Below are positions 11,601-37,945 of a DNA stretch of 64,000 nt, one piece after another. The notes beneath the pieces were generated by a model. The model was given only the letters and a program-made list of their open reading frames with translations. It made no database searches and was not told where the DNA came from. The stretch covers positions 19,557 to 83,556 of IMG/VR virus record IMGVR_UViG_3300009164_000001; one strand, 5' to 3'. The number at the start of each line of letters is the position of its first letter. Position 1 is the stretch's first letter. Source of the stretch: a virus. The position numbers and the translations under genes were made by a program.

Positions 11601-14600
11601 TTATATCGATTGTTTAGCTGTAGTATTTCTTTTAGTAGACAAATCACCTAGACGAGATGTGTATTTTCTACCCATTCCACCAAATCTTTTCTCCTCTTTG
11701 TCATCTGCTAAAACTTGTACTACTTTATATCCTAAGTCAGAAGCAATTTGCTGAAGCTCTCCTTCTGATTTTTGGTACACAGGGCTTTCTGGATTCTTAG
11801 CTTGCTTTCTTAATTGCTCCATTATCTCGTAACGGTTAAGTGATCCAGTTTTATCCAGACCTCTTGCAATTCTGTATTGCATATCAAGCTTACGTTGGTC
11901 CATTGACATTCCTGCAAGGCCTTTACCAAGAGCTTCTGCAACCCCTAAGTTACGTTCATCCATGTATTGGTTCTGATTGATATCAGCCATCATGTTTGAC
12001 TTACTTGCTTCAAGTTGTGCAGCTTGGTTTCTTCCAGCAACTTCAGCAGCTATCTGTGCTTCTGAGTTTTTAATTGCTCTGTTTTCTTGATCTTGTCTTT
12101 GAGATATTTTAGCAATTTCATCAGCTGTTTTAGTTGCTACACTTTGCATGGCAATGATTTTACCAGGACCTAAGTTTGTATTCTTTAGGTAGGTATTCAT
12201 AGCATTTTGTTGACGACGTGCATCTTCAATTTCTCCTGACTTATCTACTCTTGCAAGACTTGGGGCAGTTACAGATTGAGCTGCAGCCATGCCAGCAGTC
12301 TTTTTATAAGGCTTAAGCATTGCATAAGCAGGCCCTGCTAACTGTGCTAAACCTCCAAGAAATCCAGGGTGCTCTTCTAACCAAGTCTTACTTAGATCTA
12401 ATTTTCTTTCTGGATCTTTAGGAAGGTTTCCTGGCTCTCCATTATCTTGAGGTCTAAAGTTATAATCTAAAAGCTCTTGCTTTAACCCATCTTGAACTTT
12501 AAGATCTGTTTTTGTAGAAACAGGAAATGGTATAGGCTGATTTGTTTTAGGATCTCTAATATAATCTCCAGTCTGGGCATCCATTCTATATTCAACAAGT
12601 TGGCCATTTAGCATAAATCCGGTGCTAGGCTCATTTGTAGGACCCGTTGGAAGATCGTAATTTTCCATCCCCGTATAATCTTTGAAATCTTTATATGATG
12701 ATTTCTTTTTAGGATCTTTCTTTTTGCCACCTCCAGCATATTCTTGCATGCCACCAGTTCTAGCAATCTGTTTAGGATCACGGCCTGCTTGCTCTTCTTG
12801 CTGACGAGCTAAGTCTTTTATGATATTTTTTTTAGAAATAGGGTCTAAAGACGGATTAGAAGCAATAGCTTTATGTGCTTGAGAATACGGTTCTCCTTTT
12901 GGAGTTTTTAATACACGAGAGAAGAAGTATTGGTTTCCGTTAATTTTAGTTCCAGTTTCTTTATCTTCTACTTCAGTATATTTATCAAGCTTAATTCCTC
13001 CTTCTTCATGGGTATTTCCTAAATACTCAACATCATTAGAGTTTGGGATAGGTTTAATCTTTCCACCTTCTGCATAACGAGTTCCTCCAAGGTCGTTGTA
13101 AGATCCTCCAAACTCATAGCAATTAGGATCCATCATTCCACCATCAGCATGGCTGTTTACTTGTTGACAATGTTTGTTTAATTGTCTTTGAAAAAAATCT
13201 GCACCTGTCTGTCTTTTGCTGTGGTCACCTCCATAGTTAGCTTTACCTTTTTTAGTAAATAAACCACGAAGACCTCCACCACCTCCACCAGAACTTTGCT
13301 CTTCTTCAACAGGCCTTTCTTGTCTAAAGCCTAAGTCTTGATCTCCTTCCATTAAGTTGTTGTTCCAGTCATTTAACATTCGAGTTCCTGGACGTTTAGG
13401 ATCTGACTGATAATGGTCAAAGAAAGTTCCAGGCTCTTTTCCTGCATCCACACGACGCTGCTCTGCTGGAGAAAGAGGCATTTGTGGATAAGGAATTCTA
13501 TCTTGAAGTGTATGAGGATCAGCAGAATCAATGTCTACTCTACGGGCTTTTGCCCAATCCATATTGTACTGCTGTTTCTTTTGCTGGTACTCTTTTCTAG
13601 CATTTCTTCTAGCACTTTGCTCATCAAACGAATTGTACATTTCCCCAGAAGCTTTGTCTTCCTCAGGGGCAACAGCAGGAGTAGTAAAGTAGTTAAATTG
13701 TGGAGTGGCTTGAGCTACTGGATCACATGCCCCTGTTGCAGGATTGTATGTAGTTCCTGGAGGACATTCTGATCCACCCATAGCATATCTTTTCATACCA
13801 CCGTTACGAGCCATTTGATTTCCTCCTCTATAGGAGTCCATCATTTTGCTGTTAATGAAAGAATTATTAACTGCAGACATTTGATCTGTATCAGCCATAG
13901 CAAGTTTACCTGCTTCTTCTGTTGATGCTTTGTTATCTTTTATAGTGTCGTAAATTCCATAACCAAGTCCAGCAACTGCTCCTGCTAATGTTCCATATGG
14001 GCCTGCTACTGAACCGTAGCTTGCACCTTTTCCAACACTTGCCATGATGTTACCTACACCATAATGGTTTCTTTCTTTTTTTGTAAAAGTAGCAGCGTTG
14101 TTATCACTACCAGTATTTTTAATTATTTCTCCACCAATATTTAAAGCTGCTGCTACAGGCTGTCCGTAAGAACTTACTCCTGCCATAAATGAGCCTGCAG
14201 TATTTGCAGCATTAACAGCAGTTGATCCAACACTAGCTCCAGTAGATGCAAGATCTACTCCTGCCTCTCCAGCCATTGCTGCATTTGTACCAAACTCTTT
14301 AGCTGCAGTACTAGCTACTGTTTTTGTAGCTGCGGCAGCTGCTTGTTTAGCAGCTCTTTCTGCAAAAATATCTTTACCAGTGCTAAGTGCAAGTTTACCC
14401 AGCTCCATACCAGATTGTTTAACAACATCTTGTTGCTGCTTTTTTTGGTCTTCATTAAGTTTTTTTAACTCGTCTTGAGTTTCTTTTAATGATTGTAAAG
14501 CAACGTTTTGATTTTTACCTGCCTCATCTGCTGCAGATTGCCCTAGGTAATATGAAGCCTGTGGAGCTTGTGAAACTCCACTTAGGTTATATCCAGCTAA

Positions 14601-14666
14601 AGAGTACTTCTTAACTTTCTTTAGTGCAGGTTTTTGTTGTTGTCTACTAATTAGTTTTTTGGCCAT
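11601..14666 (-). CDS. Internal virion protein with repeated Y-x-x-GG motifs
   Basis: This is a 1021-residue protein. The N terminus is very basic (MAKK.., many K/Q), followed by an Ala/Gly-rich apolar region at about 100-250 that could be membrane-active. From about 290 it carries short Gly-Gly motifs: RYAMGG (~294), CYEFGG and RYAEGG (~515-535), EYAGGG (~644). Between them lies a segment with HEEGGIKLD and VEDKETG, a small recurrent pattern in Bacteroidota phage proteins that I know only as unnamed. The C terminus is basic and Q-rich. The same motif recurs in three other late proteins of this window. Function unknown; by position an internal or cargo protein. Confidence 0.6.
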   Translation of the reverse strand: MAKKLISRQQQKPALKKVKKYSLAGYNLSGVSQAPQASYYLGQSAADEAGKNQNVALQSLKETQDELKKLNEDQKKQQQDVVKQSGMELGKLALSTGKDIFAERAAKQAAAAATKTVASTAAKEFGTNAAMAGEAGVDLASTGASVGSTAVNAANTAGSFMAGVSSYGQPVAAALNIGGEIIKNTGSDNNAATFTKKERNHYGVGNIMASVGKGASYGSVAGPYGTLAGAVAGLGYGIYDTIKDNKASTEEAGKLAMADTDQMSAVNNSFINSKMMDSYRGGNQMARNGGMKRYAMGGSECPPGTTYNPATGACDPVAQATPQFNYFTTPAVAPEEDKASGEMYNSFDEQSARRNARKEYQQKKQQYNMDWAKARRVDIDSADPHTLQDRIPYPQMPLSPAEQRRVDAGKEPGTFFDHYQSDPKRPGTRMLNDWNNNLMEGDQDLGFRQERPVEEEQSSGGGGGGLRGLFTKKGKANYGGDHSKRQTGADFFQRQLNKHCQQVNSHADGGMMDPNCYEFGGSYNDLGGTRYAEGGKIKPIPNSNDVEYLGNTHEEGGIKLDKYTEVEDKETGTKINGNQYFFSRVLKTPKGEPYSQAHKAIASNPSLDPISKKNIIKDLARQQEEQAGRDPKQIARTGGMQEYAGGGKKKDPKKKSSYKDFKDYTGMENYDLPTGPTNEPSTGFMLNGQLVEYRMDAQTGDYIRDPKTNQPIPFPVSTKTDLKVQDGLKQELLDYNFRPQDNGEPGNLPKDPERKLDLSKTWLEEHPGFLGGLAQLAGPAYAMLKPYKKTAGMAAAQSVTAPSLARVDKSGEIEDARRQQNAMNTYLKNTNLGPGKIIAMQSVATKTADEIAKISQRQDQENRAIKNSEAQIAAEVAGRNQAAQLEASKSNMMADINQNQYMDERNLGVAEALGKGLAGMSMDQRKLDMQYRIARGLDKTGSLNRYEIMEQLRKQAKNPESPVYQKSEGELQQIASDLGYKVVQVLADDKEEKRFGGMGRKYTSRLGDLSTKRNTTAKQSI

Positions 14667-14677
14667 AATCGTAAGGT

Positions 14678-17600
14678 TTATCTACTCGTAGTACGGTAGT
14701 TAGCTTTAGCTGTATACAAATTTATTAAATTTTGAGCTCGGTTGTTAGAAATTAATCGTATTCCTAAGAATTTATCTATGAACTTTCTTTGCTCATACCA
14801 AGGTTTGTTTGGCTCTAAGTAAGCAGTGTTTACTATTCCTTCTGATGTAAACATAGGAATTATACCTCCAGGAGCATATGTTCCTGTGTAATAGTCACCG
14901 TTTACATTTACTTGGTTTTGAGCCAAAGTTGTATTAAAATTTATTTTTGATAAATCTCTGAAGTCATTAAACACCCAGTTGTGATCAACTTTTCTAATGT
15001 TTTTAAGGTAAGTTAAATCTTTAACCCCTGAAATTTGCTCAGTAGTGTAAACATAGAAACTGGTGAATCCAGGATTTAAAGTTGAAGTTACTTTAGAGAT
15101 GTTATTAGCATCTGCTTTATATGTTTCTAAAAAATAAGTGATAGCCGAATATAGTTTATTATCACTTTTAGTAGTTGAAACAGCCCCCGTTTTAGACGTA
15201 GATACATCCCCAGTAGATATAAATTCAAACTCAAAATTAGATACAACACCATAAAAATTACCAGGATTAACATAATCATTATGTACATAAAACTTCGATG
15301 TAGGTAATGAATTAAAGCTGTACAGGTATTTAGTATTGAATGCATAAAGTGGTGGTATATAAGAGTGTCTACTAGCCCAAGCACCTGTGTCTAAAGATAA
15401 TGAAATTGTCCATCCCCCTTTTGTGAAATTAGTTCCTTCTATAAGAGGTATTGGCTCTCTTTTAATTTTATCTGTAACAAGTCCTCCAGTGATAACAATG
15501 GTTCCTAAAGTAAGTTGTGAATTAAAAGCATTTGTAGGGATAAGGTCTCGTTTAGTTATGATAATTCTTTTTAACAATGGATCGTAACTAACAAGGTATC
15601 CAAAGTTATTTGTTGGGGCATCTAGGTTTATTCCAGCAAGAGATGCTCCGTAGTTTTGTAAAGCAAATGGTACATTCTCTCTAGCCCAAGTTGATAATCC
15701 AAGGTCAGTTAAATCTTGTACTTTGTCTGTAATTAAGAAGATTTTTCTAGAGTTTCTAGATATAAACACATACCCATCTTTGGTTACTAAGGCTCCCATT
15801 TTATTGGTTAATCCCATGTACCCATCTGTAGATTGCACGAATTCATCAGGTTCTTGTGCAAATAAGTCACCTGAACCAATGTATGCTTGAGATGCATCAG
15901 CTAACTCAAGGTTTTGTTTACCTTTTGTTTTGAACAAACTCTTTTCAGTATGAATGTAAATTAATGCATTCAAGTTGAAGATGTTTGTAATAGATCCTTT
16001 GTTTTGCCCAAAGTCTTTAAGATCAATTGCTAAGAAATAACGATATGAATCTGTAAAGTTACCGTCTTGAATTATTGATCTGATTACACGGTTAGGAAAC
16101 AAGTTAGTAGATTTGTCTTTCTTTGGGTAAGGTATTGCTACTCTAATATCTTGTAAAGCAGAATAGTGTTCTTCGTAAAGTAAGTTTTCTTTTTTAGTAA
16201 GGTCATGTACAGGAGATCTCCACAATACATCTGTAGCAGTGTACTTATCAAAGTACATACTATCAGCTGTGCTTACTCCTTTTTCTGTATCCCCACAATA
16301 ACGGAAATTGATATTGTCATCAGATTCTATTATAATTTGATGTAAAATTGCATGAGGATCCCAATAAGCATTATCATCACCTAACCAGTTATTGTTATCA
16401 AGAATATCTGAATTGCTAGTATTAATTTGTTGATCAAGTGGTACATAAGAAAAAGTAGAATTAATGTTATCATCAACAATATTATCATCAAGAGAATTAG
16501 TAAATTCTGCGTAAAATGGTTCTTTTTGATTTCCAACTTCTTGTTTAAAATATCTAAATCCATATGCTTGAGACGTTAATCTATAAGCATATCTACATAT
16601 GTAAGTATCTCCTCCAAAAATGTCAGGAGTACGTACTCCAGTATAGTAATTACCTATTGTTGGATCATCTCCTGTAGTGATATTAACTTGTAATGTAGAT
16701 TTATAGAATCCAGTCCACACTAATCTTTGAGCATCAAATGGTTCAAATACGTCTGTTTTTGTTGAACACAAATTTGCTATGTATATGTTTGGTCTTGAAT
16801 ATTGTCTAGTAGCCGAGTAATAAGGATTAACTTTTTTTAAAATTGAAGCATCTTCTCCAATATAAGGATATTTACCTGTACCATGTAAAGGTGGAATTCC
16901 CGATTTCAAACCAAGCACAATTGAGCTTTCTCCACTTAGATTTAATAAGTATGTTGCTCCTTTAAATGCAGTTGAAGAACTGTTTTTAAGAATTGATAAT
17001 CCTGCTAAATAACTTGCACTGTCTGGATCTAATGGAAATATAGTTTGATTTGCTCCTAAAAATGACTGGTTACCGTCGGCTGCTCCAACAGCTACTCCAA
17101 AATCTACTCCAGTAGTTCCAGGCATATTATATTGTGCTGCAACCATTAAAAGTCCAAAAGCATTTGAAGTTCCATAAACAGGAGTGTCATCTGCATCATA
17201 ATTATCTGTGTTTCCCAAAGTAGAACTTATCCATTGGTACTCTGTTTCTCCACTTCTAAATTGAGTAAAACTCCAACTACTATCTACTGCTGGTGGGTCC
17301 CCGGCATTCATGTACCCAGGTTGAATTCCTTTGTGCCTTCCTCTCCATTGTTGCATTGTTGCAACATATTGCAAATCTATATGAGTTGCTTGCCCTAAAC
17401 TTTTTTGAGTTCTAAGTAAATTAAAGTCATGAAATTTAAATACTGATTGAGCTACTACGTTTTCGTTAGGTGTACTTGCCCAAGGATAGGCTGCATAAGC
17501 AAACGACTCCGTGTGAGGCAAAGCATCCATATACCATAAATGATAATATGGACCAAATTTAGCATCATCTATTTTATTAAATAAATTTCCTGATTTAATC

Positions 17601-19531
17601 CATTTAGCTGGATGAAGCCCACTTTGTCCTATTATTGTCTTATCACCTTGGTTTCTTTTTGCATAATACACTTTATATCCTTGTACTTGCTGAAGAATGA
17701 ATTTAGGAATTTTTAAATTTGCTAATTTAAATCCTAGTATTCTAGTAGTTTCCTTAAATGTTGTTTTAGAAATATTTGAAATTTGTGCAGAAGTTAAAGG
17801 TGGGTTTGAAAAATTTGTATTAGTAACTAATGTAGAAAACGAAGGATTATGGTTAGAAGGCATTTTGTGGTGCCTAACTTTTGTGTTTCTTATAGTTTCT
17901 GTGTATACAGGTGTACCAGACCCATCTACACTAAATACATCAAAGTCTGGAGAATCTGGATAAGTTTCATTTTTGTTTTCCCAATATCCAGTTGTCTGAC
18001 TTACATGCAAGCTTGTATCTAAATACTGATACATTGCTCCATTTGGATCTGTTTGTAAAAATTCTGCAGGGTTAAATCCTGAAACATCAACATTATTTAG
18101 AGAACCGTTTTCCCAAGATTTAACTACATTACGTCCAGGAATATGATATGCATAACTTTCTGTACCATCTTTAAATATAAATGATATATAGAACGAGTAT
18201 ACTTCTCCTCTTCTGTAACTTTTTTCTTTAAACAATCTGTTTATATTTCTATATCCTCTGTCTTTCCCATTTTGCAATGGGTAAGTTATTTGAGAAATAT
18301 AATTATAATCTACTGGAAAAGGATAGTTTAAATCTTGAGAAACTGCTGCATACCCATAATTAATATTGTATAGATCATAACTTCTAGGATCAAATTCTAC
18401 AATATCTTTTGTAATGGCTTGCAACTGTATTCCGTTAGCAAATCTTTGAAATCCTAGGTCTTTTCTTCCAGTTAAGTTTGCAGCATACATTCTATTATCT
18501 AACTGTGCAATAGATTTTGCACTGAGATAATTGACTTTATCTAATACTGCATCTTCTACAGTAGCTTTATCTACTTGTTCTAAACCACTATATGTAATGC
18601 TTATAGTTGTAGTTTTAATTTCTACAAACTCAAGTTTGTACACAAATTGAACATCTCCTATTTTTTGAAGTACATATGGTACAACGTATGTGTAGTCAAT
18701 GTTTAAATTTGTTAAATCCCATTTGATAGATTTGTTTGTTTCAACTCCACCTGGAGCTCCTCCAATCATTTCAAATGGAATATAGTTTTCTGAAGATGGG
18801 TGTACATATACTGGATTAGCCATCCCTAAAACATTAGTTTCAGTAAAGTCTTTATCTGCATATGCCACTGCTAAATAGTAAGCACCTGTTACAACTCCAC
18901 CACCTTCTACTATAGATGCGGCATTAAATTCAGGAATTCTTCCAGAATCCATAAACATGTTAAGCATGGTTATATTCTGACCTGTAGATGTGTATAATTT
19001 GTTTGAGGTGCCTCCAGAAGCTAAGAAAGTCTGCTGTCTTGTAACATTAAATACTCGTGGAGGATTATAGTACTCCGGGTATTCAATTTTAGTTACAGGC
19101 TCTACTGTGAACTTGTATTTGTTATCTGTGAAGTATATAATGATTTCTCCTGTAGGAGAAACTCTAAATTCTCCCGTAATAGGGTTATCTATATCAAAAT
19201 TTAAATGGCCAGTTGCTTCTCCAGTAGTTGTTGTAAGTAAAGCAAGTAAAATGTTTGTTGAAGTATTTACATAAAAAATACTTGAAGTAGATGTTGGAGT
19301 ACCAGCTTTGTTAGCAAAAATTATAAAGTTGTCATCAGGAAGAGCAATCTGGCCGACAGGTAAAAATCCTGTTGGGAGATTTGCCACAAGTTTGTTTCCA
19401 AATTCATTGCTAATAGCTCCTTTATTAATGTCCACTACAGCATTAAGTGCATCTCTATATGTACCGTCGACCTGATCTGAAAGACCAGTATCTTTGTTCA
19501 TCCCCTTTAAAAACTTTAATTCTGATGCCAT
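14678..19531 (-). CDS. Tail nozzle (muzzle) protein, P22 gp10-like
   Basis: This is a 1617-residue protein rich in beta strands and aromatic residues. The N terminus contains KGMNKDTGLSDQVDGTYRDA and then LNAVVD, a pattern typical of the large nozzle proteins of crAss-like and other Bacteroidota podoviruses, where it starts a beta-propeller-like fold homologous to P22 gp10/T7 gp12. In that family the protein closes the distal tail and holds the fibers. It is followed by internal virion proteins and preceded by a ring-type connector gene, the expected order. The family call is from motif memory; the exact tail position is inferred. Confidence 0.6.
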   Translation of the reverse strand: MASELKFLKGMNKDTGLSDQVDGTYRDALNAVVDINKGAISNEFGNKLVANLPTGFLPVGQIALPDDNFIIFANKAGTPTSTSSIFYVNTSTNILLALLTTTTGEATGHLNFDIDNPITGEFRVSPTGEIIIYFTDNKYKFTVEPVTKIEYPEYYNPPRVFNVTRQQTFLASGGTSNKLYTSTGQNITMLNMFMDSGRIPEFNAASIVEGGGVVTGAYYLAVAYADKDFTETNVLGMANPVYVHPSSENYIPFEMIGGAPGGVETNKSIKWDLTNLNIDYTYVVPYVLQKIGDVQFVYKLEFVEIKTTTISITYSGLEQVDKATVEDAVLDKVNYLSAKSIAQLDNRMYAANLTGRKDLGFQRFANGIQLQAITKDIVEFDPRSYDLYNINYGYAAVSQDLNYPFPVDYNYISQITYPLQNGKDRGYRNINRLFKEKSYRRGEVYSFYISFIFKDGTESYAYHIPGRNVVKSWENGSLNNVDVSGFNPAEFLQTDPNGAMYQYLDTSLHVSQTTGYWENKNETYPDSPDFDVFSVDGSGTPVYTETIRNTKVRHHKMPSNHNPSFSTLVTNTNFSNPPLTSAQISNISKTTFKETTRILGFKLANLKIPKFILQQVQGYKVYYAKRNQGDKTIIGQSGLHPAKWIKSGNLFNKIDDAKFGPYYHLWYMDALPHTESFAYAAYPWASTPNENVVAQSVFKFHDFNLLRTQKSLGQATHIDLQYVATMQQWRGRHKGIQPGYMNAGDPPAVDSSWSFTQFRSGETEYQWISSTLGNTDNYDADDTPVYGTSNAFGLLMVAAQYNMPGTTGVDFGVAVGAADGNQSFLGANQTIFPLDPDSASYLAGLSILKNSSSTAFKGATYLLNLSGESSIVLGLKSGIPPLHGTGKYPYIGEDASILKKVNPYYSATRQYSRPNIYIANLCSTKTDVFEPFDAQRLVWTGFYKSTLQVNITTGDDPTIGNYYTGVRTPDIFGGDTYICRYAYRLTSQAYGFRYFKQEVGNQKEPFYAEFTNSLDDNIVDDNINSTFSYVPLDQQINTSNSDILDNNNWLGDDNAYWDPHAILHQIIIESDDNINFRYCGDTEKGVSTADSMYFDKYTATDVLWRSPVHDLTKKENLLYEEHYSALQDIRVAIPYPKKDKSTNLFPNRVIRSIIQDGNFTDSYRYFLAIDLKDFGQNKGSITNIFNLNALIYIHTEKSLFKTKGKQNLELADASQAYIGSGDLFAQEPDEFVQSTDGYMGLTNKMGALVTKDGYVFISRNSRKIFLITDKVQDLTDLGLSTWARENVPFALQNYGASLAGINLDAPTNNFGYLVSYDPLLKRIIITKRDLIPTNAFNSQLTLGTIVITGGLVTDKIKREPIPLIEGTNFTKGGWTISLSLDTGAWASRHSYIPPLYAFNTKYLYSFNSLPTSKFYVHNDYVNPGNFYGVVSNFEFEFISTGDVSTSKTGAVSTTKSDNKLYSAITYFLETYKADANNISKVTSTLNPGFTSFYVYTTEQISGVKDLTYLKNIRKVDHNWVFNDFRDLSKINFNTTLAQNQVNVNGDYYTGTYAPGGIIPMFTSEGIVNTAYLEPNKPWYEQRKFIDKFLGIRLISNNRAQNLINLYTAKANYRTTSR

Positions 19532-19541
19532 AATTTTAGTA

Positions 19542-20435
19542 TTAGAAGTATCCTCTTCCGTAAGCTCCTCTGTTTAATTCTTCTCTTGTTCCCAAATTCT
19601 CGAAGAAGTTTGCATGTCTGTTCAAGTTTGGGATAAGTCTTACCCACTGATTCATGAATGATTCGTACTTATCGATGCTTGGGAAGTTAGCTTGATTACG
19701 TGCTTGAGTACAGTAGTATTTCCACTTAGTATCTGCAAAATTGTAATCAATTCCATTCATAGCTGGGGTATATCCCCCTAATAACATTTGTTTGTAAATG
19801 TACCAAAACATAGCTTCTTTAAAGCTGATGTCGTCTGGCACCATTGGGTAACAGTCTTCATCTACTGGAAATGCTGTGTAGCTAAAACAAACTACTCCTT
19901 TTTCAAATGAAGTATTAAGATAATCCCCATTGATTGTATAGGTGTCTTTTGATTTAGCAAACTTGTTTTCACATTGTTCACAGTGAAGTCCAATAGGGAA
20001 ATTGTTTGTCCCGTACTGCAATGGTGATAATGGTTGCCCTGATGAAAGGTAAAGGTTTTCAATTACTGAAATCCTTGCATTTAACTCTCTAAGTTGGTAG
20101 TTAAATCCTGTAGCATCATCTGGGTTAGACTGAATAAGATCATTTAAAGCTTTTACCTCAGCAAGTAATTCAGTCAATTCAGTCGACATTGACGGACTAA
20201 TTGTGTTGTTAATAGCCACTTGATTTATGTAATACAAATCAGCTGGCATTACAGTTTTGAAGTTTTCGATATTTAAAACACATCCTTTTTGAACAAGCTG
20301 TGGGGCAGAGCCAATATGCTCTAGAGCCTCTCCAGTCCATTCAACAGCATCATCAATCCAGTTATCTCCAGGGGGTTTTAAGTCCCTCATGACTTTACGG
20401 ATAATTACTTTGCTAGATACGTTTTTATAAATCAT
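19542..20435 (-). CDS. Head-tail connector/ring protein
   Basis: This is a 297-residue protein. The N terminus has the pattern RDLKPPGDNWIDDAVEWTGE followed by a helix, which I associate with crAss-like ring (tail adaptor) proteins. A central coiled coil (~85-120), a CEQCENKF Cys pair (~170) and an aromatic C-terminal half with VPDDISFKEAMFWYIY follow. It lies 10 bases upstream of the nozzle gene in the same unit, fitting assembly between portal and nozzle. The ring assignment is moderately confident; which ring it forms cannot be told. Confidence 0.5.
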   Translation of the reverse strand: MIYKNVSSKVIIRKVMRDLKPPGDNWIDDAVEWTGEALEHIGSAPQLVQKGCVLNIENFKTVMPADLYYINQVAINNTISPSMSTELTELLAEVKALNDLIQSNPDDATGFNYQLRELNARISVIENLYLSSGQPLSPLQYGTNNFPIGLHCEQCENKFAKSKDTYTINGDYLNTSFEKGVVCFSYTAFPVDEDCYPMVPDDISFKEAMFWYIYKQMLLGGYTPAMNGIDYNFADTKWKYYCTQARNQANFPSIDKYESFMNQWVRLIPNLNRHANFFENLGTREELNRGAYGRGYF

Positions 20436-20946: not shown

Positions 20947-21828
20947 TCAACACATTTTGCCACCCATTTTCTTTTTACCTGCAGCAGCCATAGATTGGAA
21001 TTTGCTTTTTCCGTATTTCTTACGACCAGCAGATGCTGCAATAGCTTCAGCAGATTCTTCAGACTTTCCTTCTTTCTTTAATCCTGAAACCATCTTAGCA
21101 AATCTTCCACCACCACCTGGCTCCATTGTTTTAGCTCCACCTTTTTTATACTTACCTCCCATCATTTTTTGAACAGGGTAGCCATCTTTATCATATCCAG
21201 TCTTTCCTTTATTAGCTTGCCTTGCTTGATTGCTTCTTGCAGTTTCTTCTCTTTTTCGAGATTCTTGAAAAGGTGTAGATTTAAAAATAGAGTCAAGAGA
21301 ACTACCTGGTTTAGAATTTTTTACTAAATCTGCTTGTGTTTTAAATTCAGCCTGTCTTTGATTAGAAAAATATACACTACTATCTGCAGTAGCTTTTAAA
21401 GGATCTCCTGGTTTTTGACCACCATCTTCGTATTTTTTAACTCCACCAGTTTTATACATTTTCTTTTTACCAGCCATGGTAGCTTTACCTTCAGCTTGAT
21501 TTTGACGAGCATTTGCTTGCATACCTGTCTCAAGACCACCCATCATATATTTCATAGGAGGCTTAACACCTGGAGCTTCAAAGTTAATTTCTTTGTTCTC
21601 CTCCATAAAAGATTCTCCCTCTTTACGGGCCTCTTTCATTACTTTCTTTTTAGAGGTCTTGCCTCCTTTTTTATACATTGAGTTCATGTTTTCTTCTTTT
21701 TTAATTTTAGATTCTTGCTTAAGCATTTCTTTTGTAGGTTCTTTGCCAGAACCTTTATTTTTACGGATGTTATCCCAGAGCCCTCTCTTAGAGTATGAAC
21801 CGTCTTTTCTTTTAATCAGCTTGCTCAT
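20947..21828 (-). CDS. Lys/Gly-rich protein with repeated Y-x-x-GG motifs
   Basis: This is a 293-residue, strongly basic, low-complexity protein. It holds at least six copies of the short motif seen in other late proteins: MYKKGG (~51), YMMGG (~94), MYKTGG and KYEDGG (~124-138), MMGG and KYKKGG (~223), with MGGK at the C terminus. The C-terminal 60 residues form a distinct Gly/Lys/Ala-rich segment. No enzymatic domain is visible. The start overlaps the end of the 75-residue membrane gene by 17 bases. A DNA-binding or packaged internal protein is possible; function unknown. Confidence 0.55.
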   Translation of the reverse strand: MSKLIKRKDGSYSKRGLWDNIRKNKGSGKEPTKEMLKQESKIKKEENMNSMYKKGGKTSKKKVMKEARKEGESFMEENKEINFEAPGVKPPMKYMMGGLETGMQANARQNQAEGKATMAGKKKMYKTGGVKKYEDGGQKPGDPLKATADSSVYFSNQRQAEFKTQADLVKNSKPGSSLDSIFKSTPFQESRKREETARSNQARQANKGKTGYDKDGYPVQKMMGGKYKKGGAKTMEPGGGGRFAKMVSGLKKEGKSEESAEAIAASAGRKKYGKSKFQSMAAAGKKKMGGKMC

Positions 21829-22335: not shown

Positions 22336-23043
22336 TTATTCTTGAGCAGGTTGTTGTGCAGTTTGTGGGGCTCCTCCAGTTAAATCTTGTCCACGGTCAA
22401 GAGCAGTGTCAGAGAATGTTCCAGCTAACAATCGAAGTTCACCATTCATCATACCTTGAGTAATACCTTGAACCATGTCCATAGGCATAGGAAATTGGCT
22501 TGCACCACTGTAACACACTTGTCCTTCACAATCAATGAATTCAGCAACTTCTTCTGGGTCTTCAAAGATTCCACGAATATTTACAGTAGACATGCCGTTA
22601 GGATTGAGGACATATAAGTAATCCTCAATCATAAAGGCTTTGGCATTTTTACCAGTAAATTTATCTGCTGAAATGTAATTGGCCTCAAATGGTTTAATCA
22701 TTTGGATACGGCCTAAACCCGATACATCACCTACATATGTAATGGCTTCTTCAAAGTTAAATCTTACTGTTCTTGGGATCTTTTTTATGCTTCTATAAGC
22801 TTGACATTTTAAATCGATGTTGCAACATTTTGATAAATCAACTTGTTTAAGTTGCACACACTTTAAATCTTGCTCTAAGTGACGAGTTACAAGACCATTT
22901 CTTGCATAGTCTCTACGTATAAATACAGCACGATAGTGCTTAACGTTAAATTTGATTTGGCTCAAGGATATTACCTCATCCTGTGAGCTACGTCCACCTC
23001 TAAATAGATTTAAAAGGTTAAATGAAATTTCATCTAAAGTCAT
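22336..23043 (-). CDS. Structural protein, likely connector/ring component
   Basis: This is a 235-residue protein. It begins MTLDEISFNLLNLFRGG and has a C-terminal region PMPMDMVQGITQGMMNGELR and a Gln/Ala tail, a combination I associate with crAss-like virion proteins encoded next to the nozzle and ring genes. Several Cys residues (~60-68, ~175) are present. It is 12 bases downstream of the phosphoesterase gene. The precise role is not known; connector or tail component is inferred from neighbours. Confidence 0.5.
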   Translation of the reverse strand: MTLDEISFNLLNLFRGGRSSQDEVISLSQIKFNVKHYRAVFIRRDYARNGLVTRHLEQDLKCVQLKQVDLSKCCNIDLKCQAYRSIKKIPRTVRFNFEEAITYVGDVSGLGRIQMIKPFEANYISADKFTGKNAKAFMIEDYLYVLNPNGMSTVNIRGIFEDPEEVAEFIDCEGQVCYSGASQFPMPMDMVQGITQGMMNGELRLLAGTFSDTALDRGQDLTGGAPQTAQQPAQE

Positions 23044-30388: not shown

Positions 30389-30451
30389 TTTATAGTTCTT
30401 TTTTCTTTATCGTTAGGGGAAAGAATAACCTAACATGTTTTTATATAAGAT

Positions 30452-30483
30452 AAAAAGGAGCAGGCAGAACCTGCCCCTTTTTT
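30452..30483 (-). terminator. Rho-independent terminator after the capsid gene
   Basis: The minus strand reads AAAAAAA, GG-GGCAGG, loop TTCTG, CCTGC-CC, TTTTT, giving a GC-rich stem with a U tract. It lies 19 bases past the major capsid stop. The flanking A and T runs make it usable in both directions. Confidence 0.8.
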
Positions 30484-30501
30484 AGTGCAAACCAACACAA
30501 A

Positions 30502-31929
30502 TTACGATGCTACACATTGTAGATCTAAGCTGGTATCGAAACGACGAAGTAAGATACCTGCAGTCTTCAACATGTGAACAGAAGCACCGTCAATATCACT
30601 TGCACGTGCATCAGTTCCAGTGAATCCTTTCGGAACAACTGAACCTGCAACACACCAACGAAGTAACTCACGACCTTTCTTGTTGATCATTTGAAGGTTG
30701 TTTTCACCATCATAAGTAGATTGGTCAACAAATACCATACGGTAAGACTCCATAGGAAGACCAGAAACTGGATGCTTCTTAGAAGCTTGAGCAACTGGAC
30801 CGTGATCAAACAAGTGAGATTTAACTACGTTCACAGAATAACCATCAACGTGGTCATAGCTAGTGAAGTAACCAGTGATTCCCAAATTACGACCTGATCC
30901 AGTGATGAATTTAGGTTGAGTAGTTTGTAAGAATGGGCTACCAGAGTAGTATGTACGAAGAGCTTTGTCAAACTCACGAGCTCCACCGATACCAGTGTAA
31001 AGGGTAACTTGCTTGTCTGTAGCATCAGTCATACCATAGAACAAATCTCCAATTGTTTCTTCAAGTTTAGTTTGAGTCAACGTAGAGTAAGTGTCTTTGT
31101 TGATGATTTGCTCAAGAAGACCAGGACCTGAAACAACTGGTTGGCCATTCTCATCCAACATGGTAGAAGCACCATTTGCATCGTGAGTTTTAGCTCCGTA
31201 CCAGTAGTACATTTCACACTCTTCTTTGAACTTCAACATGTGACGGTACTCTTCGTAATCCATCCACAACTTAGTTTTGCTACCTTCTTTCAAAGGAAGT
31301 TCGAATTGTGCAACATAATCTTTAGCATTTCCAGAGAAGTGGTAAGATTTACGGATAGTTCCAATCTTAGAACGAACTAAACCTGGAGCAGTCCAGTTAG
31401 AAGCATTTCCACGAGAGAAATCGATACCTACGTTAGCATACAATTGACCCCAAAGAGCACCAGCAGCAATATCTCCACCAGCTGATGCAGACAATGCAGC
31501 AGTTTGATCAGGTGAAACACATTTCAAAGTGTATCTCCAACCAGCTCCATCAGGAACAGGCTCATCCATGATACGTGCCAACACACCTGATTGAGAAACC
31601 AATGTGTAAGGGAATACGAACCATTTGTCTGGGAAAGTTAATTGAAACGGTGCACCAGATGCTCCAGTACCGACATTAGCAATAACTGGACGAACATTAA
31701 TTTCGTGTGTTTTAACACGGTACTCATACTCAAAACGATCGATAGATTTAGTGTTTCCAACACCTTCTGTTAAGAAAGACAATGGGAACTTTTTCTCTTC
31801 ACGACCTGCTAAGTGAGTAATAATAGGAGATAACTCCTCTGGACGTTCCATAAGTGCATTAACCAACGAGTTAGTGTCGGTCATTTGTGCATCGTTATAG
31901 TACGTTTTTAATACTTGCATTACTGACAT
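30502..31929 (-). CDS. Major capsid protein
   Basis: This is a 475-residue protein of the size and composition of crAss-like HK97-fold capsid proteins. Recognisable segments include MERPEELSPIITHLAGREEK in the N-terminal arm, KSHLFDHGPVAQAS.. and PMESYRMVFVDQSTYDGE near the C terminus, typical of this group. It follows an acidic scaffold-like gene by 30 bases and is closed by a strong terminator. No separate protease gene is seen beside it. Upstream the minus strand has TAACTTTA, close to the -7 promoter word. Confidence 0.8.
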   Translation of the reverse strand: MSVMQVLKTYYNDAQMTDTNSLVNALMERPEELSPIITHLAGREEKKFPLSFLTEGVGNTKSIDRFEYEYRVKTHEINVRPVIANVGTGASGAPFQLTFPDKWFVFPYTLVSQSGVLARIMDEPVPDGAGWRYTLKCVSPDQTAALSASAGGDIAAGALWGQLYANVGIDFSRGNASNWTAPGLVRSKIGTIRKSYHFSGNAKDYVAQFELPLKEGSKTKLWMDYEEYRHMLKFKEECEMYYWYGAKTHDANGASTMLDENGQPVVSGPGLLEQIINKDTYSTLTQTKLEETIGDLFYGMTDATDKQVTLYTGIGGAREFDKALRTYYSGSPFLQTTQPKFITGSGRNLGITGYFTSYDHVDGYSVNVVKSHLFDHGPVAQASKKHPVSGLPMESYRMVFVDQSTYDGENNLQMINKKGRELLRWCVAGSVVPKGFTGTDARASDIDGASVHMLKTAGILLRRFDTSLDLQCVAS

Positions 31930-31959
31930 GATTCTTAGTTTTTAAAGTTAATTTGCGTT

Positions 31960-33078
31960 TTATTCAAACAGCCTCTTTATATCCAGGTTATCTGGGTTAA
32001 ATTTCTTATTTCCTCCTTTTTCTACTTTGCCCATGTTCTTCACACGTTCTTGGTGTCCTTGGATTCTATCTCTTAGACCTTTAGCACTAACTGTTTTAGC
32101 TTTAGTGTTAATTATGTCTTCAAGTTTCAAACCCTTGTACATTAAGTAGTCCAAGGCTAATTTTACATCTATATTAGATTGAGCATAGTCCATATCTCTT
32201 TTTGTTTGGCCATTTTTGTTAGCTGGTGCAGAGATGTAGTCGAAGAATTTTGCTTTTTCACGATCAGGAATTCTGATACCAGCAAATTCATTTCCACTAT
32301 CTATACGGCCAGCTACGTCCTCCCAAAATTCTTGTTGACGTTGTGCTTCTAATTGTTGTTGTTGACGTTGTTGTTGAACTAGTTCTCCTCTTTCTCTTTC
32401 TTGAATAGCCCCTAATTGCTTTTTAGCATGTTGGGCTTTATCGTAAAGTTTTCCAGAGTCTTCAAACTCTTCAAGCATCTCTTTGATAAACTCATTGTCA
32501 TGGCCTTTGCTTTTGAAAAACTCTGCTACAATTCCTTTTTGAGTTCTTGTATCACTTGCATCAATTTCAATTCTGTTGAAATCTAATGCAGGATTGTAAG
32601 CATCGAAGAATTTTTCAGGATCCCCACCAGCCATTACAAAATCAAGATGTTTTTGTACTAGTGGGAACTGCTCAAATAATTCTTGCAGTTGTTCCTCGGC
32701 AATGTTCTGAGCAATGTCTTTTGTGAATTCAATTAAGCCTTCCTCTGTGTCTGCATATTCAGCATCCAATTCGTAGCCTAAAGCTTTTGCAATTGTATCT
32801 GCTACAGACCCAATAGAGTCGTCTTCATCTTCATCATCAAAATCACCTTCGTCATCGTTATCGTCATTTACTGACTTATACTTTTGTCCAGGTTCATCAT
32901 CAGAGTCATCATCATCAGGAAGATTTGGATCTTCATCCTCGTCCTCCTCAGGATCGTCTTCTAAATTGTCAATGTTTTTATCAGAATCCTCTTTAGGATC
33001 TGAGGGTGTCAGTCCGTCTCCTATCATGTCGTCGAAAGAGATGTCTGAGAAGTTAAGTTTTTGTTCTGGTTTACTCAT
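31960..33078 (-). CDS. Scaffold-like acidic protein
   Basis: This is a 372-residue protein. Residues ~20-90 are almost entirely Asp/Glu (DSDDEPG.., DDEGDFDDEDED). A helical middle and a Gln-rich coiled coil (~225-250) follow, with a basic C-terminal end (~330-372). An acidic head and basic tail is the classic scaffold layout, and the gene lies immediately upstream of the capsid gene. It is preceded by a terminator-like hairpin and a promoter word, so it may begin a capsid transcription unit. Confidence 0.65.
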   Translation of the reverse strand: MSKPEQKLNFSDISFDDMIGDGLTPSDPKEDSDKNIDNLEDDPEEDEDEDPNLPDDDDSDDEPGQKYKSVNDDNDDEGDFDDEDEDDSIGSVADTIAKALGYELDAEYADTEEGLIEFTKDIAQNIAEEQLQELFEQFPLVQKHLDFVMAGGDPEKFFDAYNPALDFNRIEIDASDTRTQKGIVAEFFKSKGHDNEFIKEMLEEFEDSGKLYDKAQHAKKQLGAIQERERGELVQQQRQQQQLEAQRQQEFWEDVAGRIDSGNEFAGIRIPDREKAKFFDYISAPANKNGQTKRDMDYAQSNIDVKLALDYLMYKGLKLEDIINTKAKTVSAKGLRDRIQGHQERVKNMGKVEKGGNKKFNPDNLDIKRLFE

Positions 33079-33082
33079 ATAA

Positions 33083-33090
33083 CAAAGGTA
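33083..33090 (-). promoter_or_regulatory. TAnnTTTG promoter word abutting a start codon
   Basis: The minus strand reads TACCTTTG, four bases, then the ATG of the scaffold gene at 33078. A TTTA lies about 18 bases upstream, a weak -33. Together with the hairpin at 33110-33136 this looks like the boundary between two late units. Confidence 0.4.
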
Positions 33091-33109
33091 TTGGTTTACT
33101 TTTAATCTT

Positions 33110-33136
33110 AAAGTATAAATTTATCTTTTATACTTT
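33110..33136 (-). terminator. AT-rich hairpin between late units
   Basis: A perfect 10-base-pair inverted repeat, AAAGTATAAA with TTTATACTTT, has a 7-base loop. It lies between the stop of the 859-residue gene (33157) and the scaffold promoter word. The stem is AT-only save two pairs, so its strength as a terminator is uncertain. Confidence 0.45.
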
Positions 33137-33156
33137 TACTTATTGTATAGCACTTG

Positions 33157-35736
33157 CTATAATTTTAGCTTAGCAAATTTTGAAGAAACTTTTGATTTAA
33201 GTCCTCCTTTTTTGAAGTAATAGTCAGCATTTACACCATTAGTATTACCTGAGAATCTGTTAACTCCAGGGTCTTGCCAAGATTGTTCTGATCTTGGACC
33301 AGTTGTAGAGTTTGCATTAAGCATGTTTTTATTCATCCCTCCTTCTGCATATCCAGCAGAAGTTTTTCTTTTAAATGGTTCCTCTGGTTTAGGGGCTCCT
33401 TTAATAAATCCTTTCAAGCTTCTTCTAGTTTTAGTCTCAACACTGTTATAGTCTCCCTCATCGTACATGTCTTGTTTAATGACATAGTTTTGGTCACTAC
33501 TTTTAGTTCTAGTGCTAAGTTCTTTAGTACGTTTTCCAGGATCTTCAAAACCACCCATAGCTTTTTTCTCCCTCTCTATTTCTTCTTGTGCTTTTTTTAA
33601 TTTTGCTTTTTGTTTATCTTTTAACTGTTGCTCGTATTGTTCTTGAGCAGTTTTTTCTGTTTCCACTTGAGTCATTTCTTTTTGTAGGCTAGCATCACTT
33701 TTTGTTTTTAATCCTCTTTCACTTTCAACAATCTGAAGAGGTTCTTGCACATTAGAATATATTTTAGCTTTAGGATTATATTTTACAGATTTGCTTCCCC
33801 CTTTTGAACTAAAAAATTCATTTTCCTCTTCAGGAGTCATCCAGTCTCTAGTTAAAGTAGATCCTACTAGTTCTTGTTTAACAACATTTCCATTTTTATC
33901 ACGAATTGTTTTGTGGACATAGGCAACACCTCCACCATTACCTGTTTGCTGCAGTGTATAAGATTCTTGTGGAAGTTGGCTTTCAATTTTAACAGGGGCA
34001 GATTTTGATTCAATTGGTTTCATTCCAATAGGTTCCATTGGTTCCCCAGCTGTTTCAAGAACATGGTGTTCCTGTGGGGCTGGGTAATATCCTATAGGAT
34101 ACCCCATTGGGTCATAATTTATATTACTATTAGCAACATTTTTATAAAAATCATCATGCCAATTTGGTCCGTAACTACCTTTGTTAAAGTAACTTTGCAC
34201 ATAAACTTCTCCTGGAGTTTTACTTGGCCAAACTAGTCCACCATTGGTAGGTTTAATTTCTTTTCCAGTAGCACTATTTACTGGTTTTTTTCTATTTTCT
34301 TTGGTTGTTGTTCCTGCAATAGCTATTTTTTTTTGAAAATCTTCTAATATTTCAGGAGGCATTACTACTGGTTTACTTCGTATCTGTGGATAAATTTTTA
34401 AATAGTTTATAAGGTCTTTTGATGCCTGGTGGGCAAATGAACTATCTGCCTCTGCACCACTTGCTATTTGAAATTCTCTAGGATCAGTATGGTAAACAAT
34501 CCTAGGGTTAGTTACAAAGTAATTAGGAGGAAAAGCTTGATTAGTAGATTTTTTAGCAGGTTCTTTCTTTTTAGATGGTCCTCCATTTTCATATTTGTAT
34601 CCACCATAACGAGCTGCTTGAGGAAGACCGTAATCTTCTGTGTTTGTTTTGTTTTCTGCTACAGCATTGTGAGTAATTAGAAATCTTTTAACTGCGTCTC
34701 TTTTAGCTTGATTGTATTGTTCAAGTTCATCACCAGTAAGATCTTCAATATTTTTTCCATTTACAAATTTAGAAGATCCTGTAGGATAACCAATAGCTTG
34801 ATAGAATCTTGTCATTTGCCCTTCTTCTGCACTTTCTTTATTAAAAAGCCCAGATTTACCTTTAGTTCTACCTGATTCTAAAATATCATACATTTCATCT
34901 TCAGTGTAGTTTTTTGTAGCATCTAAATTAAGGGCTTTTCTAGCAGTTTGTAGACTGGTGTAATATTCTTCTGGGTCTGCATAATAAGCTCCCATGCTTT
35001 TATCGACATCTTTGTATCCCATGCTATTTACTAAATCTGGAGTAATAGTGTTTCCAAGTATTTCCATACCTGCAGCATGAGTGTTATTAGGAATTTGTCC
35101 AGCTATGTTTGAACCAATATGGTTAAGTTCCTCATAAGCTACATAAGGCCTTGCTCCTTCTAGCCCTCTATAATACACAGAATTTGTATTTAAATAATCT
35201 TTTTCTCCAGCTTCATTTATTGTTTTCATGTACCCTTTTTCTAATTTAGGAGAAGAGTAAGGATTGTTTTTTAAAGCTTCGTCTGCAGCATCTTGGATAT
35301 TACCTGTTTGAATATTATCAAAAAGAGCAGGTGTAGCAGCAGTTGCTAAACTAGGTGCTTTTCCACCAAGGTAGTTTGTTTTATTATAAGCTTCTTCTGT
35401 AAAATATTGAGCTGGTGCAGAGTTCCTAAACGTATTTAAAAATACATTTGATGTGTCTGTAAATTGTGGAAGTTGTTTTCTTTTTTCAAACCAATCATTT
35501 CCCCAAGATCTAGCTTCAGAGTCAGCTTTGTCAAAAACTTCTTTATTAGCTTTATAATATTCTGGAAAAAATTGATCTTTTGCTGGGCCTCCTGTAGTTG
35601 TAATTGGATTTTCAGGATCTATTAAATTTTGCAGATCAAGATTTGCAGGACCACCTACAGCAAACTTACGGGTAACATTTGCTTTAAGGCTTTTTGCCTT
35701 AGCTATTGCTGTATTTTTTGATAATTTCTTAGCCAT
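33157..35736 (-). CDS. Large late protein with Y-x-x-GG motifs
   Basis: This is an 859-residue protein from the ATG at 35736, one base after the stop of the 735-residue gene; a start 14 codons upstream is open but would overlap. The N terminus is Lys-rich (MAKKLSKNTA..). Motifs: KFAVGG (~25), YKYENGG (~383), AYAEGG (~798) and YFKKGG (~842) near a basic C terminus. A Lys/Glu/Gln coiled coil spans about 660-700. Parts of its middle resemble the C-terminal half of the neighbouring 735-residue protein (HETAGEP/NPGVGVIHG.. with TLTRDWM and SLAKDWL), suggesting paralogy. Function unknown; probably packaged. Confidence 0.55.
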   Translation of the reverse strand: MAKKLSKNTAIAKAKSLKANVTRKFAVGGPANLDLQNLIDPENPITTTGGPAKDQFFPEYYKANKEVFDKADSEARSWGNDWFEKRKQLPQFTDTSNVFLNTFRNSAPAQYFTEEAYNKTNYLGGKAPSLATAATPALFDNIQTGNIQDAADEALKNNPYSSPKLEKGYMKTINEAGEKDYLNTNSVYYRGLEGARPYVAYEELNHIGSNIAGQIPNNTHAAGMEILGNTITPDLVNSMGYKDVDKSMGAYYADPEEYYTSLQTARKALNLDATKNYTEDEMYDILESGRTKGKSGLFNKESAEEGQMTRFYQAIGYPTGSSKFVNGKNIEDLTGDELEQYNQAKRDAVKRFLITHNAVAENKTNTEDYGLPQAARYGGYKYENGGPSKKKEPAKKSTNQAFPPNYFVTNPRIVYHTDPREFQIASGAEADSSFAHQASKDLINYLKIYPQIRSKPVVMPPEILEDFQKKIAIAGTTTKENRKKPVNSATGKEIKPTNGGLVWPSKTPGEVYVQSYFNKGSYGPNWHDDFYKNVANSNINYDPMGYPIGYYPAPQEHHVLETAGEPMEPIGMKPIESKSAPVKIESQLPQESYTLQQTGNGGGVAYVHKTIRDKNGNVVKQELVGSTLTRDWMTPEEENEFFSSKGGSKSVKYNPKAKIYSNVQEPLQIVESERGLKTKSDASLQKEMTQVETEKTAQEQYEQQLKDKQKAKLKKAQEEIEREKKAMGGFEDPGKRTKELSTRTKSSDQNYVIKQDMYDEGDYNSVETKTRRSLKGFIKGAPKPEEPFKRKTSAGYAEGGMNKNMLNANSTTGPRSEQSWQDPGVNRFSGNTNGVNADYYFKKGGLKSKVSSKFAKLKL

Positions 35737-35737
35737 G

Positions 35738-37945
35738 TTATCTTCTTTTTTTAAGTAGTTTTTTACCACCAGTAGCAAATTTAAATGATTGTTTAGCTTC
35801 GTTTTCTCTTCTTCTTTTTAATTGAATATTTTGTATGGCTGTTTCTTTTTGTTCATTTCTAAGTTTTTCAACTTCTTGAGTAGCATCATACATATCGTGA
35901 TAAATCATGTGATCTGGGTCTTTATCTCTAGGATCGTAATCTATTCTACTAGACATATCGTTATTGTCAAACTTTTTTTGATCTGCATCATTAAGCCAAT
36001 CTTTAGCTAAAGATGGTCCTACTACTTTTTGAGTGTATGTTCCATCATCATTATAGGTTCTTCCATGAATTACTCCAACTCCTGGGTTTCCACTAGGCAT
36101 TAAAAAATATTCTGTTTTAGGTTTTGCAGGATAGGGGTTTGACATTCTTGGTATATTTTGCAATTGTGGTTGCAAGTCTATTTTTGGAACAGGTAGTAAT
36201 CCAGGCTCTTTCATTTTAGGTTGAGGTACTGGATTTTTTAAATCTTGAATACCTTGTTTAACACTTGCTTTATTTTTATAAGGAGTCCCACTTCCTCCGT
36301 ATTGCTGAAGTCTTTTTAATTTTTCTGCATCTGAAAGGTCTTTCCACGGAGTTACTGCAAGCTTGTCATAACTAACAACTTCTGCAGCATCTCCATCTAG
36401 ATATACTGTATATTTTTGAGGCAAGATTCTATCATCATATCTTGATCTAGGAGCGTTTGGATTTAAAACTCCTGTAGTTAATTCTCTTTGCTCAAATCTG
36501 TGATTTCCTGGTGTATAATTTGTATATTCATCGTAAGACATGCTACTATTAGGGTATCTTTTGTAATCTTCTCTAGTATTTTTAAGTTTTGTAAATATAT
36601 CGTTTATATTACCAAGTGGTGGTTGTCCTTCATACAGTGTTGAAATTTCTGCAGGGCTTAGAGATCTATATCCATCTTTTATGTAAAAATTATGTACTTC
36701 ATTAGCTCTATCAGCTACATAACTTGAATCAGCTGCAGTAGCTATGTTTGCTTTTTTAAGTGGGTCACCTTCTAGCCCTCCTGTTTCAAATTTAAAATGA
36801 GTTTTTCTTAGTTCAGGATTAGACAGCATTTCTATTGTACCTGTACCTGTATTTGTAGGTGATGGTGAAGGCGGTGAAAAATAATCTGAAAATGTTTGAC
36901 TAATTCCTGCTATTTTATTTGCTAAATCAATGTTTTTTAAAACTTTTACAGCTTTATTTCCAAGTCTTAATCCCGTTGCAACTTTTCCCCCTAAGACTGG
37001 GATAGCACTCATCATGTTTAAATAATCATCATAACTACCTTTTCCTTCTTTTACATTTTTATATCCTAAAGCAGCATCATTCCATGAAGATATTCCCGTT
37101 GGGTCAATTAATTCTATACCGTCTTCTATAGGGCTATCCCAATCTGCTGAAAGATCTCCCCCAATCCTTCCTGAAGGCATTTGTTTTGGGTAAAATTTAC
37201 CGTTAGTGCTTAAACCTTTTTTTAAATAATCTATTTTAGAATTTTCTACAGTTGGGCCAGGATTTAAAAATGGGGGCCTAAATCCGGGATCTGGGTTATC
37301 TTCTCCCCATGTAGGAACTGGAGCATTTCTTTTAGCTACAATTTCAACAGTAGGTAAAGTATATGATGGAGGATCTTTTTTCATCCCCCCTACTGCATAC
37401 TTTAATCCCCCAAATACATATTTTTTAGGATTTACCATTGTAAGGTCAGGGTGTTCTATTGTTGCATTGTGTGCAATAGACCCACGTTGTTCCTTAGAGA
37501 AAGGAAAGTGAGAGCTAAATTTATTATACTGGTCTTCTGTAAACTTTTCTACAAATCCTCCTGTAGCCATTAGCACTTGCCCACCTGAAGATCCTTTTGC
37601 ATTAGTTGCCATCCCAACAGGTTGTTGTTGAGTTGAATCTACTAAGTTAGGATTAGCTGGAGGTTGTGGACCTGGAAGACTTTGACCTTGAAGCCCCGGA
37701 GGTGGTCCTGCAGGAGCTTGGGGCATTTCCTGTGGAAGAGGTTGTTGCCCAGGAGGCATCATCCCAGCTTGTTGTGCAGCCATGTCAGACATTTGCTGAC
37801 CTTGTTGTTGTTGCTGTTGCTGTTGGTATTCCCCAATTATATCTTTACCTTGCTCGTAAGCAGTAAACACATCCAAGATACTTCCTGGAAAGCCTGATTG
37901 ACGAGCCTTAGATAAAAGCTCTCTTCGAGTTTGGTTATCCAACAT
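35738..37945 (-). CDS. Large late protein with poly-Gln/Pro region and Y-x-x-GG motifs
   Basis: This is a 735-residue protein. The N-terminal ~40 residues are helical, followed by a Q-rich run (about 40-60) and a Pro/Gln/Met linker to ~110. Gly-Gly motifs: LMATGG (~125), KYVFGG and KYAVGG (~175-183), FETGG (~388) and FKFATGG at the basic C terminus (KKLLKKRR). It lies between a portal-linked small gene and the paralogous-looking 859-residue gene. It may be an assembly or internal protein; no enzyme motif seen. Confidence 0.55.
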   Translation of the reverse strand: MLDNQTRRELLSKARQSGFPGSILDVFTAYEQGKDIIGEYQQQQQQQQGQQMSDMAAQQAGMMPPGQQPLPQEMPQAPAGPPPGLQGQSLPGPQPPANPNLVDSTQQQPVGMATNAKGSSGGQVLMATGGFVEKFTEDQYNKFSSHFPFSKEQRGSIAHNATIEHPDLTMVNPKKYVFGGLKYAVGGMKKDPPSYTLPTVEIVAKRNAPVPTWGEDNPDPGFRPPFLNPGPTVENSKIDYLKKGLSTNGKFYPKQMPSGRIGGDLSADWDSPIEDGIELIDPTGISSWNDAALGYKNVKEGKGSYDDYLNMMSAIPVLGGKVATGLRLGNKAVKVLKNIDLANKIAGISQTFSDYFSPPSPSPTNTGTGTIEMLSNPELRKTHFKFETGGLEGDPLKKANIATAADSSYVADRANEVHNFYIKDGYRSLSPAEISTLYEGQPPLGNINDIFTKLKNTREDYKRYPNSSMSYDEYTNYTPGNHRFEQRELTTGVLNPNAPRSRYDDRILPQKYTVYLDGDAAEVVSYDKLAVTPWKDLSDAEKLKRLQQYGGSGTPYKNKASVKQGIQDLKNPVPQPKMKEPGLLPVPKIDLQPQLQNIPRMSNPYPAKPKTEYFLMPSGNPGVGVIHGRTYNDDGTYTQKVVGPSLAKDWLNDADQKKFDNNDMSSRIDYDPRDKDPDHMIYHDMYDATQEVEKLRNEQKETAIQNIQLKRRRENEAKQSFKFATGGKKLLKKRR

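Follow-up and report, generated by a model that had tools for sequence, protein, structure and literature searches.

A [YF]xx[GA]G motif at the junctions of cassette-built cargo proteins in crAss-like phages, a possible signal for cleavage after Gly-Gly

The stretch of viral DNA considered here (the window: 64,000 nucleotides, positions 19,557 to 83,556 of the 83.6 kb IMG/VR virus record IMGVR_UViG_3300009164_000001), which we assign to a crAss-like phage (Crassvirales) and whose nearest relatives are IMG/VR viral contigs, encodes four late proteins, C (11601-14666), G (20947-21828), T (33157-35736) and U (35738-37945), that carry repeated copies of a short motif with the consensus [K/N]-x0-1-[Y/F, less often M]-x-x-[G/A]-G. 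In proteins of the cargo type, this motif marks the boundaries of modules: it stands at the close of short basic leaders, on either side of folded modules, and right beside modules that are also found as free genes, from which it is absent. We propose that it serves to join the cassettes of which the virion cargo proteins of crAss-like phages are built and, with a probability that we put at roughly 0.45, that this common element is recognized by a protease cutting after GG or AG. Such cutting, during assembly or after ejection, would remove cationic leaders and tails and separate the modules from each other, as in polyproteins processed at GG↓X sites; the HEAYH-containing domain of a cargo protein from the RNA polymerase (RNAP) region is one candidate for the enzyme.

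The initial annotation had drawn attention to these four open reading frames, which are present at the above coordinates and all lie on the minus strand, and to at least 14 copies of the strict pattern [KR][YF][AEVK]xGG within them. The count proves to be lower, namely 10 (two each in C, G, and T, and four in U), as against 0.09 expected after shuffling of the four proteins. The broader pattern [KR][YF]xxGG occurs 11 times (0.27 after shuffling) and [YF]xxGG 17 times (1.8 after shuffling, with a maximum of 9 in 5000 shuffles); if the GG pairs are left intact during the shuffling, the expectation for the latter rises to about 4.6 in total, still below 17. The refuting condition set by the initial annotation, that shuffled sequence rich in Gly and Lys would yield the motif just as often, is thus not borne out. 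Further, the excess of Tyr/Phe lies only at offset -3 from the GG (17 vs 3.7), with the other offsets from -8 to +8 at background, which rules out generic low complexity as the source of the motif. Across 156 related loci, [KR][YF]xxGG hardly occurs outside the C, G, T, and U families (49, 42, 6, and 35 copies within them, respectively), the muzzle family having 15 in 119,012 amino acids and the other assigned families 0-2 each. The VxFGTGGEE of TerL was discarded as a conserved but unrelated site, which lacks a preceding Lys or Arg and occurs about once per protein. A DNA pattern search for tandem KYxxGG gave no match, nor did tblastn searches with C, G, and two modules of G against INPHARED phages.

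Protein C, which is 1021 amino acids long and has five [YF]xx[GA]G sites, resembles gp45 of phiCrAss001 and is, judging from its domain profile and gene neighborhood, the crassvirus cargo protein 1 (C1). Its gene lies directly downstream of the muzzle gene and upstream of those for C2 and the RNAP-region proteins, and the order ring 1-muzzle-C-B-A-HEAYH protein is that of the muzzle, C1, C2, and RNAP proteins of phiCrAss001. A profile of the domain at residues 527-637 of C (12756-13088; AlphaFold2 predicted local distance difference test score, pLDDT, of about 90), built from the orthologues of C, aligns to residues 424-546 of gp45 (hhalign, E 3e-6), which is nearly the same span as the portal-bound piece, 425-552, seen by cryo-electron microscopy (PMC10172136). 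Profile comparison with the gut family via two intermediates, L277 and L326, both of which clear the Pfam CARG1 cut-off, gives an E-value of 2e-10 and a probability of 97%. Pfam CARG1 (PF25725) itself has no direct match to C or its 34 relatives, an hmmsearch of the PDB with the C1-domain profile did not recover gp45, and Foldseek with the full model of C was uninformative. With the crAss_CARG1 protein gp45, C shares the place after the muzzle gene, a homologous portal-binding domain, a basic N-terminus, a Gly-rich zipper-like stretch, and the motif itself, which is also carried by the gut relatives of gp45. Presence in the virion and binding to the portal and the tail interior have been shown for gp45 only, in a description in which we did not find any mention of the motif or of cassettes (PMC10172136).

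Within C, YSLAG (residues 21-25; 14592-14606) ends the basic N-terminal leader, YAMGG (294-298; 13773-13787) falls in a region with pLDDT below 50, and YEFGG (517-521; 13104-13118) and YAGGG (643-647; 12726-12740; Y/F in 29 of 35 orthologues) stand, respectively, shortly before and right after the portal-binding domain. We do not count YAEGG (531-535; 13062-13076) as the motif proper because it is folded within this domain and reads LPGG in most orthologues; it is probably structural. Overall, AlphaFold2 places four of the five sites in linkers with pLDDT below 50. Among the 35 orthologues of C, with a mean column identity of 14%, the leader motif retains Y21 in 34 and G25 in 32. N-terminal leaders end in GG or AG (P2 is Gly in 12 and Ala in 9, and P1 is Gly in 22, of 29). 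More generally, the motif closes a basic N-terminal leader in 32 of 53 distinct C1 proteins and directly follows the portal-binding domain in 38 of 54, as against 4.9% of control windows; it is found at the latter place in all eight gut homologues examined, phiCrAss001 included (FAYGG at 559). Seven gut C1 proteins hold 28 motifs, compared to 5.5 after shuffling, and only 4 are seen in 8733 amino acids of other virion proteins of the same phages.

The GLWDNIR module provides a further test which, like that on the C1 domain, is independent of any selection of proteins for the motif. This module forms residues 1-45 of G (21694-21828), where it is invariant in orthologues, and is widespread in viral contigs, with a recognizable relative of the major capsid protein (MCP) in 13 of the 30 records checked. 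Its free-standing gene products (45-79 amino acids) lack the motif throughout (0 of 18); of 31 copies embedded in long proteins, 30 are preceded by a GG at a distance of 3-5 residues, against a background of 6.9%. The junction usually reads GG-MIK or GG-EMIK, which is how the fusion of a free gene at its start codon would look, and the residue at -3 from the GG is Y/F in about half of the embedded copies and one of Y, F, M, L, I, or V in 28 of 31, so the aromatic is the commonest form rather than an obligatory one. Two of these long proteins are the aforementioned L277 and L326, which are C1 proteins by Pfam, so that the module encoded separately in the window serves elsewhere as a cassette of C1. 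Four more cassettes likewise start 1-3 residues after a GG (HIKP 6/6, TVRKSND 3/3, KVG 2/2, and NPGF 15/20); the cassette signatures were written after examples had been seen. One protein (L292), when cut up at the motif, resolves into a chain resembling beads on a string. In a set of proteins chosen for containing the motif, local alignments between otherwise different members break within 6 residues of it in 34% of cases, compared to 8-10%. Such shuffling of cassettes, along with an excess of Met after the GG, as if free genes were fused at the start codon, could also arise if the GG-coding stretch were a recombination point between cassettes, with no role in the protein. We consider such a scar very improbable: despite the low identity among C orthologues, the motif is found at fixed orthologous places (the leader and the site after the C1 domain), and it is kept in both gut and environmental families; hence, it looks selected as protein.

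The KVG..FGTW cassette of L276 and L292 resembles Pfam DUF5754 and, in L276, also PHROG 220 (minor head protein and DNA pilot), a likeness that suggests the presence of the same small module in unrelated phages. Some C1-like or mosaic proteins (L126, L306, and others) contain lytic domains, viz., LysM, phage lysozyme, and DUF2272, the LysM domain of L126 starting right after a GG. Thus, cargo chains may deliver wall-degrading cassettes.

In the Lys-rich protein G (293 amino acids), five YxxGG sites lie between two conserved basic modules: YKKGG (residues 52-56; 21661-21675) directly after the GLWDNIR module, followed by YMMGG (94-98; 21535-21549), YKTGG (125-129; 21442-21456), YEDGG (133-137; 21418-21432), and a second YKKGG (227-231; 21136-21150) directly before the C-terminal module (GGGGRFAKMVSGLKKEGKSEESAEAIAASAGRKKYG..; 20977-21120); G231 is invariant in 14 orthologues. 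In T (859 amino acids), the motif sets off a cationic leader and tail, with FAVGG (25-29; 35650-35664) ending the +8 leader and FKKGG (841-845; 33202-33216) preceding a 14-residue basic tail; YENGG (382-386; 34579-34593) and YAEGG (796-800; 33337-33351) lie between them. U (735 amino acids) has YVFGG (176-180; 37406-37420), YAVGG (183-187; 37385-37399), FETGG (386-390; 36776-36790), and FATGG (723-727; 35765-35779), the last followed by KKLLKKRR and the stop codon. The four proteins had been described as unrelated, which is right only in part: T and U have a common C-terminal domain (33715-33972 in T and 35858-36121 in U; BLASTP E 9e-7), and the N-terminal module of G sits inside C1 in other crassviruses. 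U and T are placed between the portal and the MCP, whereas G has ring 2 on one side and, on the other, the small gene that precedes ring 1; this positioning and the motif held in common with C1 suggest an intravirion location for all three.

The form of the motif, with a terminal Gly, Gly/Ala at P2, an aromatic at P5, and a loose P' side, together with its placement between modules and at leaders and tails and its absence from free-standing modules, gives it the look of a processing site. The form is illustrated by 1207 isolated GG sites in 156 motif-rich proteins, whose figures do not constitute a test as the proteins were picked for holding the motif: Tyr or Phe occupies P5 in 357 of them, against 96 expected (Tyr z = 29), P6 is rich in Lys, P4 is A/K/Q/R, and the P' side is Met-enriched (89 vs 35). 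The initial annotation had offered a packaging signal, an anchor, or a cleavage site as possible roles; what emerges is a boundary or junction element that best fits the last of these, and we infer that it is most likely a site for cleavage after the GG. A common packaging tag is disfavored because the motif is internal and repeated. The limitation of the motif to late proteins of the cargo type, its repeats, and the neighboring Lys clusters would also suit a docking motif, with YxxGG bound by a virion component (portal, ring, or scaffold interior) or by packaged DNA and multiple copies providing avidity, thereby recruiting or arranging the cargo; for phi14:2, the record annotation states that proteomics detected the motif-bearing gp066 and gp067 in virions. 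However, the pieces of gp45 resolved in the virion (214-245 and 425-552) do not include its motifs, which are at 17, 260, and 559, and docking would not require the motif to adjoin modules so exactly, before and after; we regard it as a serious but less likely alternative.

The occurrence of the motif in low-confidence linkers of AlphaFold2 models, the flexibility of GG, and the published model of gp45, where one chain spans about 420 Å between tail and capsid with a motif (260-264) in the connecting stretch, would be in line with a conserved flexible hinge, in which YxxGG is an uncut spacer that allows the chains to extend and refold through the portal and tail, the aromatic being a weak anchor. 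A strict one-position aromatic, nearby Lys/Asn, and a near-invariant terminal Gly are, however, more than a spacer requires, and no hinge is needed where the motif ends basic leaders of 10-25 residues or precedes tails of 8-14 residues; we regard a hinge as less likely than cleavage, though a serious alternative. Returning to cleavage, several points weigh against it. The published account of the phiCrAss001 virion treats gp45 as unbroken between tail and capsid, and its text reports no proteolysis (PMC10172136); gel data for phiCrAss001 reveal only moderate mass discrepancies for the virion proteins (PMC6235969). None of the gp45 peptides named in the former text (79-101, 181-190, 275-300, and 307-320) spans a motif or has an end at one. 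To the points against cleavage may be added that a C1-like protein of FpV4 lacks the motif, that a linker serving only to join fused modules would likewise be missing from modules on their own, that the model of the HEAYH domain is poor (pLDDT 52) and without a Foldseek match, and that Pfam detects no peptidase of any kind among the scanned part of the open reading frames of the 83.6 kb record, which may itself be incomplete.

Cleavage at GG↓X sites is known from adenovirus (adenain) and African swine fever virus (pS273R), and at AG↓X sites from poxviruses (I7). The likeness to these systems lies in the terminal Gly with Gly or Ala before it, an ending that the motif shares and at which the predicted cut would fall, and in basic virion core proteins whose modules are split by the site. 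In contrast, the adenain consensus is (M/I/L)xGG, with M/I/L at P4, whereas the aromatic here is at P5, and processing of the adenain/pS273R type relies on a cognate Ulp1/C5-type cysteine protease, none of which is detected by Pfam among the scanned proteins of the record. In double-glycine leaders, a short leader is likewise cut after GG, by C39 peptidases; however, these have another consensus, the motif here is also internal and C-terminal, and Pfam matched no C39 peptidase or transporter in the same scanned set. Zincin-like domains occur among the polyvalent proteins of phages. The latter are large, injected, multidomain proteins (Iyer et al., 2017, as cited in PMC7824862), in which respect the motif proteins are like them, but the motif proteins are cassette chains with a common junction signal, and it is other proteins of this genome that carry the zincin-like motifs.

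The zincin-like HEAYH motif (2106-2120, minus strand) belongs to a 2499-residue RNAP-region cargo protein that continues to the left of the window and had been put forward at the outset as a virion protease. The domain is real, with GTx[FY]HEA[YF]H kept in relatives and in gp47 of phiCrAss001. H107, E108, and H111 are invariant in nine aligned rows together with E163 and E164, located about 55 residues beyond HEAYH, and the combination of HExxH with a downstream Glu seen in zincin metallopeptidases is present and conserved; one of the two Glu residues is predicted to be a metal ligand. The Glu-Glu pattern was sought in gp47 and not found there. As the domain has no Pfam or NCBIfam peptidase match, and given the aforementioned poor model and lack of a Foldseek match, the protein is only a candidate for the protease. 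A second zincin-like HExxH (IHEFGHILLDLLG) occurs in a gp49-like RNAP-region protein to the left of the window (G000 9743-14494; L165 9740-14476), and gp062 of phi14:2 has HEIMH at a similar place. In gp067 of phi14:2 (L163:10360-12141), a virion protein, a short C1-like stretch lies between two motifs and is followed by two HExxH stretches (HEFTHAMG and HEFIHASA), to which a degenerate AYEELNH in T looks similar.

Elsewhere on the minus strand, PHROGs identify TerL (40676-42649), the portal (38382-40598), and the MCP (30502-31929), and PHROGs and the Pfam crAss_Ring models identify ring 2 (22336-23043) and ring 1 (19542-20435); the muzzle-like protein (14678-19531, minus strand; phrog_15100) was assigned by position. 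The product of the gene preceding that of the MCP (31960-33078), whose N-terminal stretch is very acidic and whose body is conserved and rich in Gln/Glu, is probably the scaffold; it was also weighed as a protease and set aside for its acidic, scaffold-like look. The structural block further includes a calcineurin-like phosphoesterase (23055-24212; SbcD-like, phrog_704), with phi14:2 having one near the same place, and a protein of 141 residues (37957-38382) matching PHROG 858 (starvation-inducible regulator/DNA-binding) lies between U and the portal.

A full-text search of open-licence papers found no description of the motif, of the modularity of C1, or of crAss polyproteins, and the passages found of a 2023 review of Crassvirales mention none of the three; as far as searched, a cassette junction motif in crAss-like cargo proteins is unreported. 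No phages are more abundant in the human gut than crassviruses. A junction signal common to lineages from the gut and the environment delimits the units from which their cargo proteins are built, aids annotation, and ties together several otherwise unalignable proteins. More tentatively, Crassvirales, and perhaps also phages outside the order that have the same cassettes, might possess a GG-specific virion polyprotein system in which a phage protease splits cassette chains behind [YF]xx[GA]G, a proposal to which we give somewhat less than even odds. If this is true, the tail-resident and capsid-resident parts of phiCrAss001 gp45 would be separate molecules and not one stretched chain; the question of whether gp45 is a single portal-threaded chain or a set of processed fragments is made testable with existing mass-spectrometry data. 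Cleavage at the motif would also mean that GG-type polyprotein processing, which to our knowledge is otherwise known only from eukaryotic DNA viruses, operates in tailed phages.

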